This document shows positions 17,724 to 30,557 of a DNA stretch of 51,136 nucleotides, in pieces. The stretch's first letter is position 1; each line of letters begins with the position of its first letter. The translations under genes were made by a program, and so were the position numbers. Under the pieces are notes generated by a model. That model was not told where the DNA came from. It was given only the letters and a program-made list of their open reading frames with translations, and made no database searches. Source of the DNA: a bacterium CG_4_9_14_3_um_filter_65_15 (lineage in GTDB: Bacteria > Krumholzibacteriota > Krumholzibacteriia > LZORAL124-64-63); contig PFVX01000068.1 of the NCBI GenBank assembly GCA_002790835.1, positions 1 to 51,136 of the forward strand, written 5' to 3'.

Positions 17724-17951
17724 ATGAAGATGACCATCGAGTACTGCCAGGTTTGAAACTACGAGCCACGAGCCGCCGGTCTGGCGGCAGCCATCAAGCA
17801 GGAATTCGGCAGCGACCCGGAAATGATCCCCTCCAGCGGGGGCGTGTTCGAGGTGAGTCTCGACGGAGAGTTGATCTTCAGCAAGAAAGCCCTGGAGCGA
17901 TTCCCCGAAGATGGTGAGATCCAGGAACTGATCCGCTCACGATCCGGCTGA
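17724..17951 (+). CDS. SelW-like (Rdx family) selenoprotein, UGA-encoded Sec
   Basis: Read with TGA 17754-17756 as selenocysteine, the frame gives 75 residues beginning MKMTIEYCQVU and continuing NYEPRAAGLAAAIKQEFG, then SSGGVFEVSLDGELIFSKK and ERFPEDGEI. This is the SelT/SelW/SelH thioredoxin-like family with its N-terminal CxxU redox motif (Cys8, Sec11), and both the length and the GGVFEV/FSKK strands fit. A bacterial SECIS-like hairpin lies at 17772-17788. AGGGAGACATCC precedes the ATG. Taken as a plain stop the gene would be ten codons, yet coding sequence clearly continues. The genome must therefore carry selA, selB, selC and selD, which are outside the window. The role is presumably thiol/selenol redox chemistry in the cytoplasm. 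Confidence 0.88.
17772..17788 (+). promoter_or_regulatory. Bacterial SECIS-like hairpin of the SelW gene
   Basis: GCCGCC pairs with GGCGGC over six base pairs around the loop GGTCT. The loop begins 22 bases after the UGA and starts with GG then U, as bacterial SECIS elements require for SelB binding. Confidence 0.75.
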
Positions 17952-18067: not shown

Positions 18068-20983
18068 CTAAAAAACCGCTGCCAGATCGGGCAGAACCAG
18101 TTGCCGCCACACTCCCGCATCGATCCCGACAGCCACGCTGCCGGCCTCGGACTGCAGGGGCCGCACGAGGGCCCCGGGTCCCGCCTGTTCCTGCAAGGAG
18201 GGGCACACCACTTCCAGCAGCACGTCCGCCGTGCCGCTCTTGCGGACCCTGAAGGTGACCCAGCTGGTCGGCGCCCATTCCAGGTTCCAATCCAAGGGCA
18301 CGGGAATCACCTTCCGGCCGCTTTCCACCGCCGGAACCGGCGCCCGCACCGTCGTCATCTGCGGCATGACCACCGCTTCCAGCACGAGATCAGCCCCCGG
18401 AGGGATGGCTTCCAGCTTCAGGGTGGCGGCAGTCACATGCACGTTCACGGGTTCATTCATGGCTTCGAGCAGGTGGGCCGCGGCGGCCATCTGGGCGCGA
18501 CAAACGGGGTCGTCCCCGAAGGCCAGAACGTAGCGATCCAACAGATCCAGGGTGGCGCCCTGGAGGTTCCGCCATTCCCCACTCCAATCGTTCCCGGCCG
18601 CGGCCCGGGAACGCACGACCGAGGCCGCGGTCGTCATCCGGTCCCAGGCGCCGCCGAAGGCCACCAGCTGATCGCGCGCCTCGGCGCCGTAGGTCGTGGC
18701 CAGATACCGGGCCCACCGGTTCAGGAAGGGGTCGGTCACGTCCCCGGAGAATCCGGCCCAACCCACATTCGAGGTTGAGGTCGCCAGCATGCCGTAGAAT
18801 TGCAGGATCCCCGGAGCGGCGGCCAAGGTGGTCAAATGGGTGGGCCAGGTGGCCGGCGGATCTCCCCGGTCCAGATACGGTCGCAAGGCCTCGAAACGCA
18901 GACGGCTCAGCACATCCTCGAAGACGACGGGATCGAAAGCCACCGCCGGGTTGGCGTTCAGATCCCGCCAGTACGCCGGATCATCGCCGGCCCGAACCGC
19001 CGCCGCCCCGGATTCGGCGATCAGGGCGTAGATCTCCACGATACTCGCCACCACCAGCGGTGCCTGGCCCTGGCGGAACATCCCTGCGGTTCGTCGCAGA
19101 ACCGGCAGGGTCTCGCGGACCTCGGCGCTTGGCCAGCCACCTCGGGACCATCCGCCGCCGAACGGCAAGCCGAGGGCGGCGGGGAGATGCTCGGCCGCCT
19201 TGAGCCGAGCCAAAGCGAAGGCGCTGTTGCGATAGGCCCGGGTCACCGGACTTGCGGCCGGCGGGACCTTCTCGGCGGCCGCCTGCAATTCCGCCTGCCA
19301 TTGGGGACTCCAGGACGTCGCCTGGAAGAGCCCGAGCAGGCGGCTCATGGCGCCGGCGGCCACAACGGCCTGACGCTGGTGGAGCGCCAAACCGGAGATG
19401 TTCAGGTTTTCGGCGGCCCGGGTCCGCCACGCCGGACGCAACGCGCTCAGGGAATCGCAGCGAGCCTGGACACCCTTGTCCGAGAGGCTGGCGACATCCT
19501 GCCAGCAGATCCGCTCCGTCAGGGAGAACCAGGCCAGTTCCAGCCGCGCCAGGTCACCCGTCAGGTTCTTACCCTCGGCCACCAGGGCTTCCAGCCGTCG
19601 GATCTCCCGCTCGGGCCGTGAGCCCTGTCGAATTCCCCCCGCCACCACGTCCAGATAGGTGGCCACCTGCCCGGCCAGCGGCTGGGCTGCGCCTCTGCCC
19701 AGTTCATCGAGGGCCCCCTGCCGGGCCTTGTCGGCGTCGCCGCCGTTGGCGAGGATCCGGTTTTGGTACCGGGTCAGCACCGATTCGTAGATCCGGCCCA
19801 CATCAACAACCGTCAAAAGAGGCGCCTCCTGGGGGACGGCGCCGTTTCCCCAGGCCGGGATCAACCGTTCCGCGAGGGACTTCACCGACAGCCCGGGAAT
19901 ACCGCCGAGGAACCATCCCCCCAGCATGACGGCCAGGAAGACGAACATGGAGATGACCTGGCCCGGTAGGCGGCGCGAGCGGTGGGTATCGGGCATGACG
20001 AGGGGACGCAGGCGGCGCCGTTCCAGAACGACCTTCCTGGCGGAGCGCGGAAAGGCGCCCTCATCCCGGCTCCCGGTCAAAACAGAGGCGGCCGGCTGGC
20101 CGGTTGCGGCGGGACGAGGCTGGCTGGGGACGGCGGCTGCCGGAGAGCGCCCCATGGATAGTGATTCCGGCATGGGTGTCCGCCCCGGAGAAGTCGTGCG
20201 GCGACCAACCTCGAGGGATGGTTGGTAGTGGGTTGTCCGGGCCAGTTCCTCCAGGCCCTGGATATCCCCGATGCTCAGGCGGCCGGTCACCGATCGGAGG
20301 TAGGCCGTCGCGGACTTGCCGGGGTCATCCTCCAGGAGGTTCAGGACCCGGCGTTTCCAGTCCACCAGGGATCCGCCCGGCTGGTGCACCGCAGCCAGAT
20401 TCCACTGCCAGGGTTCACCGGGGCAGAAGGATGTGTAGCGCAGGCTGGCCCGGGTTTGTCTCGGGATCGCCGTCAGCAGGAACGACAGGATCCTGTCGCT
20501 GGCGGAATCGGGTCCCGACAGGGGAAGGTGGAGTTCTCCTCGCACCAGGAGCTGCTGCAGGCCTTCGACCACCAGGTTGCTGGTGTCGGGATTCAGGTCT
20601 GCGCCCAGGAACCCCGTAGGCCGGACCTCGTCCGGGAGCACTTCCCGTCCCCGCCCGTCCAGCAGACGATAGGGGTTGAAGCCGAACCGGGAGTACTCCT
20701 GCTCGGTGACCAGACAACACAAGTGCCGCACGGAATCGTCCCGCCAGGTGACGGAAACCGCGTGTCGGGAACCTGAATCCGAACGGCTGGAAGACTTCAG
20801 GGGAAACGAGGCGATCACCGGCTGATCGGCTGGAGGGGCAAGGGCGACCGTCCAGCCGTCGTGGGCCATGACCAGCTGTTCCAGGATCTCCGGCGGACAG
20901 CGGTCTTGACCACAGACCACGCGTGGCCCGGAGCCCGGAGAACCCGAGCATGACACCAGTTCGATCATGCCCAACACGGACAC
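18068..20983 (-). CDS. Large single-pass membrane protein, unknown function
   Basis: I do not recognise this ~971-residue protein. A cytoplasmic-looking N-terminal domain starts MIELVSC near residue 6 and includes AIPRQTRASLRYTSFCPGEP, faintly reminiscent of GTPase-associated (GAP1-like) domains. A Pro/Ser/Ala-rich linker follows, then one transmembrane helix (VISMFVFLAVMLGGWFLGGI, about 341-364). The rest is an Ala/Leu/Arg-rich helical region of about 600 residues and an immunoglobulin-like C-terminal strand region. The start is GTG 20983, five bases after AAGGAGG; ATG 20968 is the alternative. An N-in, C-out topology resembles type VI-associated or nanomachine scaffold proteins, but no such genes lie nearby. 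It is transcribed alone, downstream of a strong terminator. Confidence 0.6.
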   Translation of the reverse strand: MSVLGMIELVSCSGSPGSGPRVVCGQDRCPPEILEQLVMAHDGWTVALAPPADQPVIASFPLKSSSRSDSGSRHAVSVTWRDDSVRHLCCLVTEQEYSRFGFNPYRLLDGRGREVLPDEVRPTGFLGADLNPDTSNLVVEGLQQLLVRGELHLPLSGPDSASDRILSFLLTAIPRQTRASLRYTSFCPGEPWQWNLAAVHQPGGSLVDWKRRVLNLLEDDPGKSATAYLRSVTGRLSIGDIQGLEELARTTHYQPSLEVGRRTTSPGRTPMPESLSMGRSPAAAVPSQPRPAATGQPAASVLTGSRDEGAFPRSARKVVLERRRLRPLVMPDTHRSRRLPGQVISMFVFLAVMLGGWFLGGIPGLSVKSLAERLIPAWGNGAVPQEAPLLTVVDVGRIYESVLTRYQNRILANGGDADKARQGALDELGRGAAQPLAGQVATYLDVVAGGIRQGSRPEREIRRLEALVAEGKNLTGDLARLELAWFSLTERICWQDVASLSDKGVQARCDSLSALRPAWRTRAAENLNISGLALHQRQAVVAAGAMSRLLGLFQATSWSPQWQAELQAAAEKVPPAASPVTRAYRNSAFALARLKAAEHLPAALGLPFGGGWSRGGWPSAEVRETLPVLRRTAGMFRQGQAPLVVASIVEIYALIAESGAAAVRAGDDPAYWRDLNANPAVAFDPVVFEDVLSRLRFEALRPYLDRGDPPATWPTHLTTLAAAPGILQFYGMLATSTSNVGWAGFSGDVTDPFLNRWARYLATTYGAEARDQLVAFGGAWDRMTTAASVVRSRAAAGNDWSGEWRNLQGATLDLLDRYVLAFGDDPVCRAQMAAAAHLLEAMNEPVNVHVTAATLKLEAIPPGADLVLEAVVMPQMTTVRAPVPAVESGRKVIPVPLDWNLEWAPTSWVTFRVRKSGTADVLLEVVCPSLQEQAGPGALVRPLQSEAGSVAVGIDAGVWRQLVLPDLAAVF

Positions 20984-21049
20984 GTGCGCCTCCTTGTGGG
21001 TATTCGTCCACCACTTTCCCATCGGCAAAACGGCCCCGATACTTGAGAA

Positions 21050-21106: not shown

Positions 21107-23023
21107 TCAGATCTCCCGGTCCCAACCCATCCGCTTGATCTTGTCCACGTTTCCGGGCGAGATGGCCGCGGGGTGCTCGTGTTCGAACATCTCCTTGGGC
21201 ATCTTGCCGTTCAGCCAGGAGGGATTCATGGGGTACACGTGGGGATTGAACAGGACCCCGTACATGTGCCAGATGAGAATGGCCAGGAAAGCCAGCCAGG
21301 CCTCGTAGTAGTGGACGACCTGGAAGGCATTGATGATTTCCTTGGAGACCAAGGTGCTGACATACGGCTCGAACCACAACGAGGCCCCGGTCAGCACCAT
21401 GACCACCGTTCCCCAGATCAGGGCCCAGTACTCGGCCTTCTCCACGAAACTGAAGCGGCGCATCTCGGGGACCTTGTTGGTCATTCCGAGGTTGTAGCCG
21501 AACATGCCCATGGCCTGCTTGGCGTCGAGAATGGACGGCGCGATGTCCCTCAGGAACACCCGACCCTTGCGGGTAAAGAGATAGCCCAGGTGCCAGAAGG
21601 AACCGAACACCATGACCCCGGCGGCGATCCGGTGGATCAGCCCGCGCATGTAGGCTCCGCCCTCGTGGCCGAAAATCAAGTGCGCCCACCAGGCATCGTA
21701 AAAGCGCAGGGAAAAACCGGTGACCACAAGCACGGTGAAGGAAATGGCCAGGGTAGCGTGCTGCAGGACCTCGTCGACCTCCATGCGGCGCACCTGTTGC
21801 TTGGCCAAGACGTTGCGGACCTGCCGCAGCCAATCCAACAGGCAGTAGAAGAACATCCCGCCGATGACCAGGAAGATCAGGATCTGGTAGATCCGCTTGA
21901 TCATGAAGGGCAGGCCCGAGTCTTCCGCCGCCAGAGGAGCGTGAATGCGCGTGTTGGCGGCCGTCTCCTCCGTGATGCCCGGATGGCAATTCCCGCAGGT
22001 CTTGGCCACGTTGGCCGGGTTGACCGAGGATTCGGGGTCATTGGACGGCAGGATCAGGTGAGCCGTGTGGCAGGAGGCGCAGTTGGCAACCTTGGTGTCG
22101 CCGCTCATGCTCTTGAGACCGTGGTAGGAATCGACCCGGGATATGTCGCTGCCCGTGGGGACCTCGTAGCGCTCGTTCAGGTTGGCCGAGTCGTGGCAGG
22201 GGGTGCAGGTGGCCTCGGCAACACGGTAAGGACTGACCGGGCTGCGCGGATCGCTGTGCGACAGGATGCCGTGCTCGCCGTGGCAGTGGGTGCAGGTCGG
22301 AGCGTCCACTTCGCCACGGGCGATCAACTGCCCGTGGATCCCCTTTTCGTACTGCGCACGGATGGCCTGGTGGCAATTCCCGCAGGTACTGGAAATGTTG
22401 AAGAAGTTGATGGCCGACTGGATGTTGCCCGGAGGCAGGATCCGGTGGGGATTGTGTTTCGTGCCGTGGCAATCGGTGCAAGAGGCGGCGGAGGACTTCA
22501 CTCCCGGCAGCTCATGGCCGTGCACGCCCTGGTGATAGACCTCCACCGGGTGCTTGAAACGAATGCCCACCTTGGCCAGGAATTCCTGGTTCTCGTGGCA
22601 TTCGGCGCACATGCCGGGCATGTTGGCGGGATGGACCAGGGATTCGGGATCGCTCGGGGGCAGGATGTGATGCCCGCCGTGGCAATTGGAACAGGTCGGA
22701 ATGTTTGGCGACTCCCCCACAATGCCCTGGCCGTGCTGGGTGTAATCTGCGGCCACGTCGTCATGGCAATCGGCGCAGGCGGGCGGTCCGAGCTCGATGT
22801 CCTCATGGGGCAGGTCGGTGACCCCGGAATGGCAATCGGTGCAGGCCAGATCCGCATGAATGCTGCCCGCCAGAGCCGTCAGTTCCACGAAGGGCCCGTC
22901 CCCATCGGGGTCGCCGTGGCAATCGAGGCAATCGGAATCCGGGTATTCGTCGGCCAAGGCGGCCGCAGCGGCCAGGATGACGATCAGTGCCATCATCAGG
23001 ACCGGCAGGAGTCGTCTGGTCAT
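21107..23023 (-). CDS. Eleven-heme c-type / b-type cytochrome fusion (CbcL-like)
   Basis: This 638-residue protein has a signal peptide (MTRRLLPVLMMALIVILAAA) and a periplasmic half of ~350 residues with eleven CxxCH haem-c sites (CLDCH, CTDCH, CADCH, CSNCH, CAECH, CTDCH, CGNCH, CTHCH, CTPCH, CASCH, CGNCH). From about residue 375 a membrane half follows with several hydrophobic helices and histidines in them (HATLAISFTVLVVTG, HRIAAGVMVFGSFWH, HYYEAWLAFLAILIWH), as in formate-dehydrogenase-gamma/b561-type di-haem cytochromes b. It should take electrons from menaquinol and pass them into the periplasm, like CbcL of Geobacter; the function is inferred. A strong terminator follows, and a barrel gene is divergent upstream. 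Confidence 0.88.
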   Translation of the reverse strand: MTRRLLPVLMMALIVILAAAAALADEYPDSDCLDCHGDPDGDGPFVELTALAGSIHADLACTDCHSGVTDLPHEDIELGPPACADCHDDVAADYTQHGQGIVGESPNIPTCSNCHGGHHILPPSDPESLVHPANMPGMCAECHENQEFLAKVGIRFKHPVEVYHQGVHGHELPGVKSSAASCTDCHGTKHNPHRILPPGNIQSAINFFNISSTCGNCHQAIRAQYEKGIHGQLIARGEVDAPTCTHCHGEHGILSHSDPRSPVSPYRVAEATCTPCHDSANLNERYEVPTGSDISRVDSYHGLKSMSGDTKVANCASCHTAHLILPSNDPESSVNPANVAKTCGNCHPGITEETAANTRIHAPLAAEDSGLPFMIKRIYQILIFLVIGGMFFYCLLDWLRQVRNVLAKQQVRRMEVDEVLQHATLAISFTVLVVTGFSLRFYDAWWAHLIFGHEGGAYMRGLIHRIAAGVMVFGSFWHLGYLFTRKGRVFLRDIAPSILDAKQAMGMFGYNLGMTNKVPEMRRFSFVEKAEYWALIWGTVVMVLTGASLWFEPYVSTLVSKEIINAFQVVHYYEAWLAFLAILIWHMYGVLFNPHVYPMNPSWLNGKMPKEMFEHEHPAAISPGNVDKIKRMGWDREI

Positions 23024-23386
23024 TTCGGATCAGCCTTTCGGTGGCGGGTGTCAGCGAAATAACGACTGGGGCCTGCATATTCCGACCCCGGATAAAATTC
23101 GACAGAGGAATCTTCCCGGTTCAAGGAACAGACCGACGAGGAAAATTTAATCATCCGTTCCGCCGGATCAAAGTTTAATCATCATAACTTCAATATTTTG
23201 AAATAGTTAAAACATACCAAACTAGTTGGCTTTTGAGCGATTCCCCAACCCTGCGGCAACCGTCGGGAAAGTCGAGAGCTGGAGTTTTCGACAAATGCTT
23301 CTTAATATCAACAATTTGCAACCCCATGCATGGACTTGAATTAACAGGATAGAATAGATGCCCAACTTGTTTAGGGGGAATAAGTT
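23024..23386. other. AT-rich divergent intergenic region with repeats
   Basis: This 363-base stretch between the cytochrome and the barrel gene has no ORF I can support and is far AT-richer than its surroundings, as expected for a shared regulatory region. It contains the ten-base direct repeat TTTAATCATC at 23146-23155 and 23174-23183, and the inverted repeat TTCAA-TATT-TTGAA just after it. These may be operator sites. I could not identify a convincing -35/-10 pair. Confidence 0.5.
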
Positions 23387-24369
23387 ATGAAGTTTTTCTT
23401 AAATTTCCTTGCCCTGCCCGCCACCTCTTATGCTGCAACGCAGCCAGACCTTAGGCAGAAGGCTTGGAGTGGCCGCCCAACTAAGAAGAATGCCGGTGCC
23501 CCACGGCGGCCTGCGAAAGCAGCCTCGACGGGACCAACAGCGCCCACCCCGACGGCGGAGCCACCGGCGGAGCCACCGGCCGGATTTACTACTTCCAGCG
23601 GGAGCGCTACGGCAACGGGACATCCATGCCGAACAAGGCCCACCAGGTCGCTCTGCGCATGTCCTATCAGCTGTCGCCGCGTTCGTCGGTGTCGGCTTTC
23701 GTCAACTATTCCCACGACAAGAACGATGACCTGAACGTGTACGAGTACACACGGGACATGTTCTCGCCGGGCATCAACATCTGGACGGCGCCGACGGATC
23801 GCCTTCTATTCACCCTGGGCTGGGACAACATGTCGCTGAAATCCAACGCGAACCTGTGTCCGCCCTTCTTCGACGGCTGAGCGGGTCACCTCGAAGGCTC
23901 CGGTGCGGAGCTTCAATCCTACGACTCGACCAGCGCCCAGTCCGATTACACGACGACGAGCAACGTGTTCTTCGTCAACGCCAACCTGAGGGCCTCGGAG
24001 AAGGTCAACTTCTACCTCGAAGGCGTATATTCCCTCGCCAACGGCGGCTTCGATCCCTTCGATCTGCCCCTGCCCGAGGATATCCCCGCCGATGAGCCCC
24101 TCAGCCCCGACCACGTGGGCAACTCCAAGGGCGCGTACGACTTCACCGTGATCAGCGACTACAGTGACCTGGAGTCCAAGACCCTGGAGGGCACCTTCGG
24201 CCTCAACTACAAGCTCGACAGGAAGGCCAGGCTCTACGCTTCGGTCAATATCGTCGACCTGCAGGACGACCAGGTCTACGTCTACGGCGACCTGACCGGG
24301 AAGATCCTGACCTATGCCACGGGGATGACGGTGGACTTCTCGTCCCGGAATCGTTCCCGCCGCCCATAG
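23387..24369 (+). pseudogene. Damaged MtrB/PioB-like outer-membrane barrel gene with internal UGA
   Basis: A start with RBS (GGGGG before ATG 23387) and a short signal-like peptide (MKFFLNFLALPATSYAATQ) opens in one frame, but the family-like sequence lies in another, from about 23485. Only the C-terminal ~290 residues of a barrel are present: amphipathic strands such as VALRMSYQLSPRSSVSAFVN and LLFTLGWDNMSLKSNANLCP, then FFDG, TGA (23878-23880), AGHLEGSGAELQ and strands to MTVDF. Such porins usually exceed 600 residues. The frame shift and missing N-terminus argue for a pseudogene. Yet a SECIS-like hairpin follows the TGA at the same distance as in the SelW gene, so Sec is possible. A 12-bp tandem repeat lies at 23554-23577. 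The cytochrome is divergent. Confidence 0.6.
23893..23914 (+). promoter_or_regulatory. SECIS-like hairpin after the UGA of the barrel gene
   Basis: GAAG-(G)-CTCC pairs with GGAGCTTC with one bulged G (23897), leaving the loop GGTGC, in which the outer G and C can also pair. The loop begins 22 bases after the TGA at 23878-23880 and starts GG-U, the same as the SelW element. Confidence 0.45.
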
Positions 24370-24548: not shown

Positions 24549-25430
24549 TCAGCCGAACCGGCCGGTGATGTAGTCCTCGGTCTCCTTGAGATGGGGATTG
24601 GTGAACAGCCGCACCGTGGGACCGTACTCGACCACCTGCCCCAGATACATGAAGGCCGTGTAATCACTCACGCGCGAGGCCTGCTGCATGTTGTGGGTGA
24701 CGATCAACACGGTGTAGTCCCCTCGCAGGTGCAGGATGAGTTCCTCCACCTTGGTGGTGGCGATGGGATCCAGGGCGCTGCAGGGTTCGTCCATGAGCAG
24801 CACCTCCGGCTCGGCCGCAATGGCGCGGGCGATGCACAGGCGCTGCTGCTGACCACCCGACATGCCCAGGGCGCTTTCATCCAGGCGGTCCTTGACCTCA
24901 TCCCACAGGGCGGCGCCCCGCAGGGCCTTTTCGCACACCGAATCGAGCACGCGGCGATTCCGTTCCCCGTTGATCCGCAGGGCGTAGACCACGTTCTCGC
25001 GAATGCTCATGGGGAACGGGTTGGACTTCTGGAAGACCATGCCCATGCGCCGGCGCAACTCGATGACGTCCACCCCGCGGCCGTAGACGTCGTCCTCGGT
25101 CAATCGGATGCCCCCGGAAACCGAGACGGTGTCGATGAGGTCGTTCATGCGGTTGACCGAACGCAACAGCGTGCTCTTGCCGCACCCCGACGGCCCGATC
25201 AGGGCCGTGACCTTGCCGCGGGGAATGGGCAGGTCGACATCGAACAGCACCTGCTTGGCCCCGTAGCTGAGGTTGAATTTTTCCACGCGGATCAGCGGGT
25301 CCTCCGCACGGACCTCGGCGTGAATATCCGCCGGCACCACCTGGCCCGACGCGATGGCCGCCAGACGGTCCGAGGCGGCAGGGGAGGTGGAATCGGCCGG
25401 GATATTGCGCTGGAATTCAGGTGCGTTCAT
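24549..25430 (-). CDS. pstB: Phosphate ABC transporter ATP-binding protein
   Basis: This 293-residue ATPase drives the high-affinity phosphate importer. Walker [10 protein letters not shown] (79-87), Q-loop region FQKSNPFP (133-140), signature SGGQQQR (191-197) and Walker B LLMDEP (211-216) are all present, and [18 protein letters not shown] is typical of PstB. About 40 extra residues precede the usual start. Its ATG overlaps the pstA stop (TGATG), so it is translationally coupled as the last gene of pstSCAB. phoU is not here but follows phoR on the other side. Confidence 0.97.
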
Positions 25431-26932
25431 CAGAATCTCGACCCCGTGTACTTGCGCGCCAGGCGGGTGCGCAGCATGATCGCCGCCGCATTGAGGAAGA
25501 GCACGATCCCCATCAGCAGCAACGTGGTGGTGAAAACCATGGGCTTGGCGGCTTCCGAGTTCTGGCTTTGGAAGCCCAGGTCGTAGATGTGGAAGCCCAG
25601 GTGCATGAAGCTCCGTTCGGGATGCAGGAACGGGAAGTGCAGATCCAGCGGCAGGTCGGGAGCCAGCTTGACGGCTCCGACGAGCATCAGGGGCGCCACT
25701 TCCCCCGCTCCCCGCGCCATGGCCAGGATCGCACCGGTCATGATGCCGGGCAACGAGCGCGGCAGCACGACCCGCCGGATGGTCTGCCACCGGGTCGCGC
25801 CGCAGGCGAACGATCCTTCGCGCATGGAATCGGGCACCGCGGACAGGGCCTCTTCGGTGGCCACGATCACCACCGGCAGGGTCAGCAACGCGAGAGTCAA
25901 CGAAGCCCACATGATCCCGCCGGTGCCGAAGGTCGGATTGGGCAGCTTGTCGGCGAAAAAGAGCGCGTCGATTCCGCCGCCCAGGAAGTAGCTGAAGAAT
26001 CCCAGCCCGAAAACGCCGAACACGATGCTCGGCACCCCGGCCAGGTTGTTGATGGAGATGCGCACCACGCTGGTCAGCCAGCCCTGTTTGGCGTATTCGC
26101 GCAGGTAGAGCGCTGACATCACCCCGAACGGGACCACGAGGATCGTCATGCCCAGGGTCATCAGGACCGTCCCGAAGATCGCCGGAAAAACCCCGCCCTC
26201 GCTGTTGGCTTCGCGCGGCTCCGCGGTCAGGAATTCCCACCACCGGCCCAGGTAGAGCCCCGCCTTTTCCGCGAGCGAAAGCCGGTTGGCCGGGTAGGCC
26301 CGCACGATGTCGTTCAGAGCGATGTCCTTGACCTGGCCGGCGGCGGTAGCCGTGCGAATCGCGAACTCGCCCGCGTCGTCGTCGTGACGATGACGGCGGT
26401 ACAGATTCCAGATCTCCTGCGGATCGGTGGCGATCAGCGAATCGCCGGCCACGAAACCGGCAGGGGTCCCGTAAAACCGCCCCCAGGCCCGGCGCTCGTA
26501 GACGATGGCCCACGCCGGACGCGTTTCGCCTTCCGGGGAAACGCCGAAGTCCTCCACCCAGCGAAAATGCTCCCCCGTCAGTTCGAAATTTCCCGTGCGC
26601 ACCAACCGTCGATGCAGCCGGCCGTCCCGCCGGGCCATTTCCGCCCGGGCCGCCTCCTGCGCCTCCGCGTCCAATCCCGCGACCAGGGAAGGCTCAGGGC
26701 GAAAAGTCTCGCTACGGGTCACTTCGCCCATGACGACGGCGCCGTCTCGCGTGGTGATTTCCACCACCGGGGCCGGCCAGAAGGTCGTCAATCCCTGCCA
26801 GAAGACCAGGACCACCAGGGACGTCACCATGACCAGCCCCATGACCAGACCGAATGCCGACAGCCACACCATGGGCTCGCCTTGCGCCAGCAGGGAAATC
26901 GCGCGCACGGAACTGCGACCGGAAGCGGCCAT
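25430..26932 (-). CDS. pstA: Phosphate ABC transporter permease PstA with periplasmic insertion
   Basis: This 500-residue inner-membrane permease is about 200 residues longer than a standard PstA. A first transmembrane helix ([20 protein letters not shown], about 22-41) is followed by a ~190-residue hydrophilic region rich in charged residues ([20 protein letters not shown]). Only then does the permease core with its remaining helices begin, with the EAA-type loop [20 protein letters not shown]. The insertion should lie in the periplasm. The family core is intact, so transport function is expected. It overlaps pstC upstream and pstB downstream by single-base TGATG junctions. Confidence 0.95.
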
Positions 26933-29544
26933 CACAACCTCTTGGTCTTGCTGCGGAAATGGAGTCGAACGCCTTCGGCCGCGGTGTTGAGGACGAAGGT
27001 CATGGCGAACAGGGTCAGCGCCGCCAGGAACAGCACGCGGTAGTGGGTGCTGTCCTTGACCGCCTCGGGCAATTCGACGGCGAGATTGGCCGACAGGGTC
27101 CGGAATCCGTTGAAGATGTTCAGGTCCATGATGGGCGTGTTGCCGGCGGCCATCAACACGATCATGGTCTCGCCCACCGCCCGGCCGATTCCGATCATGG
27201 CGGCGGAGAACAACCCGCTCATCGCCGGCGGGATCACCACCCGGACGGCGGTCTGCCAGGGAGTCGCGCCGGCCCCCATGCTCGCGGCCCGCAGATGGTC
27301 GGGAACCGAGACCAGGGCGTCTTCGCTGATGGAGTAGATGAGGGGAATGATGGCGAAGCCCATGGCGATCCCCACCACCAGGGCGTTGCGCTGCACGTAC
27401 GTGCCCAGCACCGATCCCCGCGGATCCCACCCCACGGAATCCAGCAACCATCCGACGAACAAAGCCAGCGCCACGGTCGCCAGGGCCGAGACGAGAAAAC
27501 GGCCCAGATCGAGCAGGGCCACGGACCGGTGGGTCCAGGCGGAGCCCACCCCCCGGATAAGACCGTCCCCGTAGACCAGGTTCAACCAGCCGACCGCCAT
27601 GCCCGCCAGCGGCAGCAGCAGCACCACCCAGCCGGGCGTACCCGATCCGATCTGCCCGTCCAACCAGGATTTGAGGTCCCCGCCGAACAGGGTGCGTTCA
27701 AAAATCGGGCCCAGCTGCCAGGAGACCGCACAACCCAGCGCCATGGACAGCAGGACGGCCACCGGCCGCCATTGCTCCAGCCGCGCGGCGGTTTCCCGGG
27801 GCAGCAACTGCCACAGGTGGGCGCTCAACAGCACGCAAGCCGGAGTCAGAACCAGGACGGCGATGACCTGCACGGCCACCTGCTCCACGAGGGGCGCGAT
27901 GACCAGGGCGGCCAGGAATCCCAACACCACGCTGGGCAGGCTCGCCATGATCTCGATTACGGGTTTGATGCGACCCCGCTGCTCACGGGGTAGGAATTCG
28001 CTGGTGTAGAGGGCCGCGAGGATCGCCAGGGGCAGCCCGAACAACAGGGAATAGAACGTCGCTTTGAGCGTGCCGGAGATCAACGGCACCAGACTCATCT
28101 TGGGTTCGAAACTGTCGGAGGCCGAACTGGACTGCCAGACGTAGGTGGGCCCCGCGTAACCCTCGTACCAGACCTTGCCCAGCAAGGTGTGCAGGCTGAC
28201 TTCCCCGTAGGGAGCTTCCAGGGCCAGCAGGGCCACGGCGGTTTCCCCACCGACGAGAATCCGGTCTTCGCGCGGCGCGACGGCCAGATCGGCAACGGAC
28301 CCGCCTCCGGAGTCCGTAACCCCCAGAACGCGCTCGGCCGTCACGTTGTAGACCTTGACCGTGCCGTCGGCGAAACCGGCCGCGAGCATGCGCGACCGTC
28401 CCGATCCGGCCAGGGCGGTCACCGCCGCCGGACCCGGTTCCAGGACGTGGGCCCGCACCAGCCGGGAAGGCTTGCCGTCCGTACCGGCTACCGGGAACCA
28501 GATCGCGATCCGGCCCTTGCTGTCCCCCACAGCCAGCGAGACGTTGCCCGCCAGGTACCCCACGGCCGTGACCCGCGCTTCGCCGACCGCCTCGCCTTCG
28601 AGCAGGCTGCTTGTTCCCTGCAGCAGCATCTCGCCGTCGTACTCGACGAGCAGGATGGCCCGGCCCGACCGCGAGACCAGGACGATTTCGCGCCCGGTGT
28701 CGTTGAGTTTCAAGCCGGCCAGGGCGCCGGGATCCTTCAGACCGAATTCACCCAGCTGCGCGCTGGAACCCTTGCTGCTGAGGTGCTTTTGCCCCGTCAA
28801 CATGTTGGTGCGGACCTTGAGCTTGCGGTAGAGGAAGGTGCCGGAGGCGTCGACCGCCGCCAGGACGTACCCGGATCCGGTGCTGGTGACATCGACCTTG
28901 ACCACGGCGGTGTCGCTGATCGCCACGGGCTCCTGCGCCTCCAGAGCGAAGCGTTGCCGGCGCAGTTGGCCTTCCGGGGTGCGCGCGATCACGCCCTGCC
29001 GCCAGGGACGGCTCTGGCCCGGCGCCAGAGCCTTGATCTCATCGGGCACGTCGGCCTCGGTGAGGAATTCCAGTTTGAAGGCGAAATCGGCGAGGACCAC
29101 GGTGCCGTCGGCAAAACCCAGGGCCACGCCCTTGTTGCCCGCAGAGGAATTGCTGGTCAGAGGCGCCTGCCCGACGACCGAGACCTCTTCCAGGATCCTG
29201 CCTGCGGCCATTTCCTGCACCACCACCCGGCCGTCGCTCATCAGGCTCCAGGCCATGGAACCGTATCCGTCAAGTGCCTGGGCCAGGACGTGCGCTTCGC
29301 TGGTCCCGGCCGAAGGGGCGGGCAGAACCGCTTGCCGCTCCACATGAGTCGGCAACAGGAGGGGCAGGGCGACCCAGAGCAGGAACAGACCCACCAGCGA
29401 CACGGCGAGAATCCCGCCGATGCCGCTGGCCGTGATGATCCGGCCGGCCCACCGGTCGGCTAGCAGGACCCGCATGGCGGGTTTCCTGCTGAACTTCATG
29501 CCGGTGTAGCTCTGCCGCGATTCGTCTGTCTGTTGGTCGGACAT
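26932..29544 (-). CDS. pstC: Phosphate ABC transporter permease PstC with beta-propeller-like insertion
   Basis: This 870-residue protein is far longer than the ~300-residue PstC of E. coli. After the first membrane helix (IGGILAVSLVGLFLLWVALP, about 43-62) there are about 400 residues of repeating beta-strand units of WD40-like type (GFADGTVVLADFAFK, AVGDSKGRIAIWFPV, LAAGFADGTVKVYNV, VAPREDRILVGG), which would form a periplasmic propeller. The permease core follows (about 485-870), with extra hydrophobic segments and the EAA-type loop ALVSVPDHLRAASMGAGATP. Propeller-bearing PstC proteins are known in other bacteria; the propeller may contact PstS or a sensor. It lies 17 bases after pstS. Confidence 0.94.
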   Translation of the reverse strand: MSDQQTDESRQSYTGMKFSRKPAMRVLLADRWAGRIITASGIGGILAVSLVGLFLLWVALPLLLPTHVERQAVLPAPSAGTSEAHVLAQALDGYGSMAWSLMSDGRVVVQEMAAGRILEEVSVVGQAPLTSNSSAGNKGVALGFADGTVVLADFAFKLEFLTEADVPDEIKALAPGQSRPWRQGVIARTPEGQLRRQRFALEAQEPVAISDTAVVKVDVTSTGSGYVLAAVDASGTFLYRKLKVRTNMLTGQKHLSSKGSSAQLGEFGLKDPGALAGLKLNDTGREIVLVSRSGRAILLVEYDGEMLLQGTSSLLEGEAVGEARVTAVGYLAGNVSLAVGDSKGRIAIWFPVAGTDGKPSRLVRAHVLEPGPAAVTALAGSGRSRMLAAGFADGTVKVYNVTAERVLGVTDSGGGSVADLAVAPREDRILVGGETAVALLALEAPYGEVSLHTLLGKVWYEGYAGPTYVWQSSSASDSFEPKMSLVPLISGTLKATFYSLLFGLPLAILAALYTSEFLPREQRGRIKPVIEIMASLPSVVLGFLAALVIAPLVEQVAVQVIAVLVLTPACVLLSAHLWQLLPRETAARLEQWRPVAVLLSMALGCAVSWQLGPIFERTLFGGDLKSWLDGQIGSGTPGWVVLLLPLAGMAVGWLNLVYGDGLIRGVGSAWTHRSVALLDLGRFLVSALATVALALFVGWLLDSVGWDPRGSVLGTYVQRNALVVGIAMGFAIIPLIYSISEDALVSVPDHLRAASMGAGATPWQTAVRVVIPPAMSGLFSAAMIGIGRAVGETMIVLMAAGNTPIMDLNIFNGFRTLSANLAVELPEAVKDSTHYRVLFLAALTLFAMTFVLNTAAEGVRLHFRSKTKRL

Positions 29545-29561
29545 ATCCCTCGCCTGGTGAT

Positions 29562-30557
29562 CTAGGAACCCGGGGTGATGTTCACCGCCGCCAATTCCTC
29601 GCGGGCGACCGCCGCCGGAACCGGCAGGTATCCGTCCTTGATGACGACTTCCTGGCCCTGCTTGCTGAAGACGAAGCGCACGAACTCGGCGCGCAGGTCA
29701 TCCAGCTTGCTGCCGGGCTTGGCATTCACCGCCAGGTACAGGAAACGGGCCAGGGGGTACTCGCCGGAGTAGGCGTTCTCGGGCTCGGCGGGAACGAATT
29801 CCGCGTCGGAACCGGTCTCGCTGGACAGGGGCACGACCATCACGTCGGAGGTCCGGTAGCCGATGCCGCTGTAGCCGATGCCGTACTTGTCCGAAGCGAC
29901 GCCCTGGACCACGGAACTGCTGCCGGGCTGCTCCTTGACCTCGTCCTTGTAGTCGCCCTTGAACAGCGCGTGTTTCTTGAAGTAGCCGTAGGTGCCGGAG
30001 GCGCTGTTGCGACCGTAGATGCTGATGGGCTTGTCCTGCCACTCGCCGGTCAGTCCCAGGTCGCCCCAGGTGCGGATGTCCTGGGGATAGCCACCCTTGC
30101 GGGTCTTGCTGAAGATGGCGTCGACCTGTTGCAGAGTCAGTCCCTTGATGGGGTTGTCCTTGTGCACGTAGACGGCCAACATGTCGATGCTGGTGCGCAG
30201 CTGGACCGGCTTGTAGCCGAACTTCTTCTCGAAAGCGTCGACTTCCTGGCTCTTCATCTTGCGGCTCATGGGACCGAAGTTGCTGGTGCCCGCGATGAGG
30301 GCAGGAGGTGCGGTCGAGGAGCCCTTGCCCTCGACTTCCACCTTCACGCCGGAATGGAAGGCGCGGAAGCCCTCGGCCCACAGGGCCATCTCGTTGTTCA
30401 TGGTATCGGAGCCGATGCTTTTGATGCTGCCGGAGACCTGGCCCTTGGGCGCATAGTCGGGCAGGGCGGGGTCGACGACGACGCCCGCCAGGGCGACCGT
30501 GGACAGATAAAGGGTGCAGGTCAGGGTCAAGACCCACTTCAAAGCCGTGCGGTTCAT
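29562..30557 (-). CDS. pstS: Periplasmic phosphate-binding protein
   Basis: This 331-residue protein has a cleavable signal peptide (MNRTALKWVLTLTCTLYLST, cleavage after ALA). The phosphate-binding loops are typical: IGSDTMNNEMALWAEGF, GKGSSTAPPALIAGTSNFGP and YGRNSASGTYGYFK. It captures phosphate for PstCAB. It is first in the leftward operon, with a Pho-box-like site about 100 bases upstream and the phoB-phoR-phoU genes divergent. Length and layout are normal. Confidence 0.96.
   Translation of the reverse strand: MNRTALKWVLTLTCTLYLSTVALAGVVVDPALPDYAPKGQVSGSIKSIGSDTMNNEMALWAEGFRAFHSGVKVEVEGKGSSTAPPALIAGTSNFGPMSRKMKSQEVDAFEKKFGYKPVQLRTSIDMLAVYVHKDNPIKGLTLQQVDAIFSKTRKGGYPQDIRTWGDLGLTGEWQDKPISIYGRNSASGTYGYFKKHALFKGDYKDEVKEQPGSSSVVQGVASDKYGIGYSGIGYRTSDVMVVPLSSETGSDAEFVPAEPENAYSGEYPLARFLYLAVNAKPGSKLDDLRAEFVRFVFSKQGQEVVIKDGYLPVPAAVAREELAAVNITPGS

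Follow-up and report, generated by a model that had tools for sequence, protein, structure and literature searches.

Does the in-frame TGA at 23878-23880 (+) of the window, by which we mean the whole 51,136-nt stretch of contig PFVX01000068.1 analyzed here (bacterium CG_4_9_14_3_um_filter_65_15, Krumholzibacteriota), encode selenocysteine (Sec), and is the barrel gene that carries it still a working gene? We read the locus as what is left of a selenoprotein gene of the GSU2204 family, which encodes the barrel of a two-gene porin-cytochrome conduit: the 3′ third persists in a decayed state, while the 5′ part and the cytochrome gene have been deleted (probability roughly 0.88). It is a Sec gene caught in the course of decay, for which intact sister copies exist.

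The UGA Codon and Its Hairpin

As the initial annotation stated, the TGA interrupts a barrel frame that is otherwise open: it is the sole stop inside 23587-24366 (+). The peptide around it reads LCPPFFDG-U-AGHLEG. The annotation was also right in placing a Cys seven residues N-terminal of the UGA (TGT, 23857-23859, +); this Cys is conserved in all homologues except one divergent fragment (L038, see below). A second conserved Cys codon, that of a C-E motif (23512-23514, +; equivalent to Cys486 of L040), lies near a deletion junction. The hairpin at 23895-23913 (+), which is of the SECIS type by the rules given for bacterial SECIS elements (PMC13188914), has a 7-bp stem (23895-23901 paired with 23907-23913) and the loop GGUGC (23902-23906), which is separated from the UGA by 21 nt and opens at base 22 past it. 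The MFE of the 45-nt segment is -13.8. A bulged G had been described in this hairpin, but the apical stem has none.

The window provides an internal comparison. A SelW-like selenoprotein gene at 17724-17951 (+), a member of the Rdx family (PF10262, E = 3e-22) with a CxxU motif, has its UGA at 17754-17756. The hairpin that follows has a GGU loop at a spacing identical to that of the barrel gene, just as had been noted. Among the 1,225 TGA triplets on both strands, a GGU-initial 5-nt loop, a 21-nt spacing, and a stem of 5 bp or more coincide at two, the barrel and SelW genes, by a rule that was defined only after both hairpins had been seen. From the window sequence alone, the fold of the barrel hairpin is not beyond chance (z = -0.39), and an Rfam search returned no family at this hairpin.

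The genome carries the Sec machinery, with all components above cut-off: SelB (308 bits), SelA (446 bits), SelD (361 bits), and tRNA-Sec (69.6 bits). The SelD gene (L100, G000:C8:31606-32523) has an in-frame TGA of its own; therefore, the selenophosphate synthetase of this genome is probably a selenoprotein too.

Conservation of the UGA among Homologues

The window copy is truncated, and with a fold score like the one above, the UGA could be taken for nothing more than a nonsense mutation in a defunct gene, with the hairpin arising by chance. We give this reading almost no credence. It is refuted by the homologues, for all intact ones keep the UGA together with a covarying hairpin and raised synonymous conservation.

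We surveyed 80 genomes of the phylum; 13 carry the barrel gene, the window's own included, each with an internal TGA. The 15 sequences used below come from these 13 genomes (the window and 12 others) and from two metagenome-assembled genomes (MAGs) labeled Gemmatimonadota; the named records of other homologues belong either to Candidatus Krumholzibacteriia or to unclassified bacterial MAGs. We looked among the homologues for arbitrary residues at the Sec column and for loss of the hairpin, and saw neither. All 15 sequences have UGA at this column, with neither Cys nor any other residue in its place, and the flanking protein is conserved on both sides. When 8-codon windows are ranked by excess synonymous conservation, the peak at the hairpin is first of 714, and the top eight all start one to eight codons past the UGA. 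The hairpin itself covaries: six of its seven pairs show double-sided changes, 92% of stem cells are paired, and the covariation score is 0.66 compared to 0.22 after shuffling (0/500), slid registers scoring far lower. Because the free MAFFT alignment misregistered some hairpins, these were re-cut by hand around the loop, so the pair counts favor structure; the codon-level conservation is independent of the hand-set register.

It is this comparative evidence (the UGA column, the covariation, and the synonymous conservation) that is decisive, whereas a single fold is not. Judged by it, the UGA of the window is a genuine selenocysteine codon, kept in every relative found, and the earlier proposal of selenocysteine, to which the Sec machinery of the genome also speaks, is borne out.

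One of the 13 phylum genomes (G047) contributes a divergent fragment (L038/L096, G047:C1:3871219-3872298) of 26% identity. Most of the barrel is absent and there are two TAA stops; the GUAGH motif is kept, along with a different 7-bp hairpin. This is possibly another decayed copy.

Membership in the GSU2204 Family

What kind of protein carries this Sec? The 97 residues ahead of the UGA match the end of the NCBIfam model NF041027, “GSU2204 family CXXCH-containing (seleno)protein.” The cut-off of this model is 350 bits, and the five intact relatives that were scored all exceed it, at 486-593 bits. The window fragment reaches 124.6 bits and covers profile positions 457-580 only; it stays under the cut-off because the copy is truncated. 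Both the profile and the window's match to it come to an end at the residue just ahead of the Sec column. The initial annotation considered a Sec-containing barrel unusual, but such a family is already known and named, and GSU2204 appears in two selenoproteome reviews among the selenoprotein families, given as an MtrB/PioB family outer membrane beta-barrel (PMC9312934, PMC13188914). In Geobacter, GSU2204 was reported to be up-regulated with iron oxides (PMC4070692). While the reviews merely list the family, comparative evidence for its Sec now comes from Krumholzibacteriia and Gemmatimonadota-labeled genomes.

The family has a partner. In 12 of the 13 loci fetched, a homologue of the partner cytochrome lies directly upstream of the barrel gene, and the remaining locus begins inside the barrel gene. 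The partner gene tested scores 377 bits against NF041028 (GSU2203-type decaheme cytochrome; cut-off 325). Beside the window copy this cytochrome is absent, and the best match elsewhere in the genome is just 37% identical. A CXXCH motif at about residues 198-202, conserved in the intact relatives, is likewise deleted from the window copy.

Probable Deletion and Decay of the Window Copy

Positions 23499-24369 (+) hold a 3′ remnant of the barrel gene, matching residues ~482-757 of the intact same-genus proteins. The stop after the terminal Phe has been lost, and the frame continues beyond the ancestral stop to a TAG at 24367-24369. The window is collinear with a locus of the same genus (L045) at 21109-23063, 23178-23223, 23499-24360, and 24553-30477. 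Between the second and third of these blocks lies a deletion scar (23224-23498), where 275 nt stand in place of ~2.86 kb (L045 4584-7446). The net loss relative to L045 is about 2.6 kb and comprises the entire GSU2203-type cytochrome gene (L045 4973-5974) and barrel codons 1 to ~481; therefore, no working conduit would be expected from the window locus. The direct repeats found that could have mediated the deletion are all short. An upstream frameshift had been suspected here. We find none; the upstream barrel sequence is missing because it has been deleted relative to the relatives. The accompanying suggestion, a decayed copy with a selenoprotein ancestor, fits: the 5′ two thirds and the cytochrome are gone, and intact Sec-bearing gene pairs are present in two genomes of the same genus.

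What remains is under relaxed constraint. Nine of 140 family-invariant residues are altered in the window, whereas two same-genus copies have each kept all 127. A 12-nt tandem duplication of CGGCGGAGCCAC at 23553-23576 adds four loop residues in the window copy only. The dN/dS of the remnant against the same-genus copies is still about 0.25-0.28, which, together with the lack of any further frameshift, suggests that the decay is recent or mild.

Could the join at about 23223-23512 be an assembly artefact, with both the barrel selenoprotein gene and the cytochrome gene intact in the organism? The window is a contig of a MAG, and two same-genus genomes do have intact pairs. However, both flanks of the join are collinear with relatives, and the remaining 93 contigs of the assembly (95% complete) contain neither the N-terminal part of the barrel nor a close homologue of the cytochrome. 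In the piece that is left, moreover, constraint is relaxed, the stop codon is lost, and the tandem duplication is present. We therefore consider an artefact unlikely.

It is also conceivable that a short selenoprotein, still functional, is made from the remnant, with translation starting at a downstream ATG such as the one at 23626: from there the frame is open save for the UGA, and the UGA-SECIS unit is preserved. Such a product would have no signal peptide, less than half of the barrel strands, and no partner cytochrome, and its sequence is under relaxed constraint. This makes a functional product very improbable, and a decaying remnant remains the reading that we prefer.

Predicted Fold and Location of Sec

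To place the Sec in a structure we turned to AlphaFold models of two relatives, which are 31% identical to each other (pLDDT 67-68). Counted from the listed elements, both models are predicted to have 26 strands. In a fold search with an intact relative, the best match is MtrB (6r2q_B, E = 1.6e-20), with the next nearly ten orders of magnitude worse. MtrB is reached by fold search only: a profile search of solved structures gave one weak, chance-like match. Likewise, the Pfam family MtrB_PioB (PF11854) gives 14.1 bits for the fragment (E = 0.018), below the gathering cut-off of 23 bits, and no match to the intact relatives at E = 0.01. The MtrB/PioB-like assignment of the initial annotation thus stands at the level of fold, but not at that of the Pfam family.

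Both models place Sec (residues 604 and 582) in a long loop that follows strand 21. The CXXCH motif is predicted to occupy the turn that follows strand 7, and the Cys-Glu pair the loop that follows strand 17; all three share one face. Confidence is low in the loops that carry Sec and the Cys residues (pLDDT < 50). Outer membrane barrels usually have both termini in the periplasm and end in a C-terminal Phe. With this topology, the face bearing Sec, CXXCH, Cys-Glu, and the second Cys is probably the cell exterior.

Gene Neighborhood and a Possible Electron Conduit

An intact divergent neighbor at 21107-23023 (-) encodes 11 CXXCH motifs and a cytochrome b561 domain, and this gene adjoins the conduit genes in several relatives too. 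It is plausibly the electron donor on the quinol side. The 3′ flank is anchored by convergent phosphate ABC transporter genes at 24549-30557 (-), encoding the ABC ATPase, permeases, and PstS, which are collinear with the relatives. Two other features of the window may be recorded. An IS3-family insertion sequence at 54-1403 has HTH_Tnp_1 and rve transposase open reading frames and an Rfam ALIL pseudoknot (423-539), and is ~73% identical to IS3 elements of Xanthomonas citri plasmids over 77% of the query. A 986-amino acid open frame at 18068-21028 (-) is partly conserved at the DNA level in the same-genus locus and has no match in Pfam or NCBIfam.

How might the intact system work? In the relatives, SelB and tRNA-Sec would read the UGA as selenocysteine by means of the downstream hairpin. 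The conduit would consist of two gene products, a GSU2203-type decaheme cytochrome sheathed by the predicted 26-strand, MtrB-like barrel of the GSU2204 type. Electrons may pass from the b561/multiheme protein to the decaheme cytochrome within the barrel and then across the outer membrane, a route from quinol to the exterior. At the outer end, in the predicted exterior loop, Sec most likely has a redox role: it might form, e.g., a selenylsulfide with a nearby Cys, or serve as a terminal site for electron exit or for a ligand. A more specific proposal, that in the intact relatives Sec on the outer face, near the CXXCH and the Cys residues, has a direct part in passing electrons out or in the reduction of an extracellular acceptor, is tentative and less likely than not. 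The predicted exterior location of Sec in an MtrB-like conduit makes its function testable.

Comparison with Known Systems

The closest known system is the GSU2204 family itself (NF041027). The intact relatives agree with it in their scores, in the end of the profile at the Sec column, and in the GSU2203-type decaheme cytochrome upstream; the window copy differs in having lost the N-terminal two thirds, the CXXCH, and the partner gene. ExtKL (NF040886), a Sec-containing multiheme cytochrome of Geobacter, is also a selenoprotein of extracellular electron transfer (PMC5877670, PMC13188914), but ExtKL is a c-type cytochrome whereas the GSU2204 family is a barrel. The relatives resemble MtrB of the Shewanella Mtr complex (PDB 6r2q, chain B) in fold (TM-scores 0.60/0.70), in the predicted 26 strands, and in having a decaheme cytochrome as partner. 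The two share just 9% identity, however, and it is in the GSU2204-family relatives that Sec and CXXCH are predicted to lie in loops.
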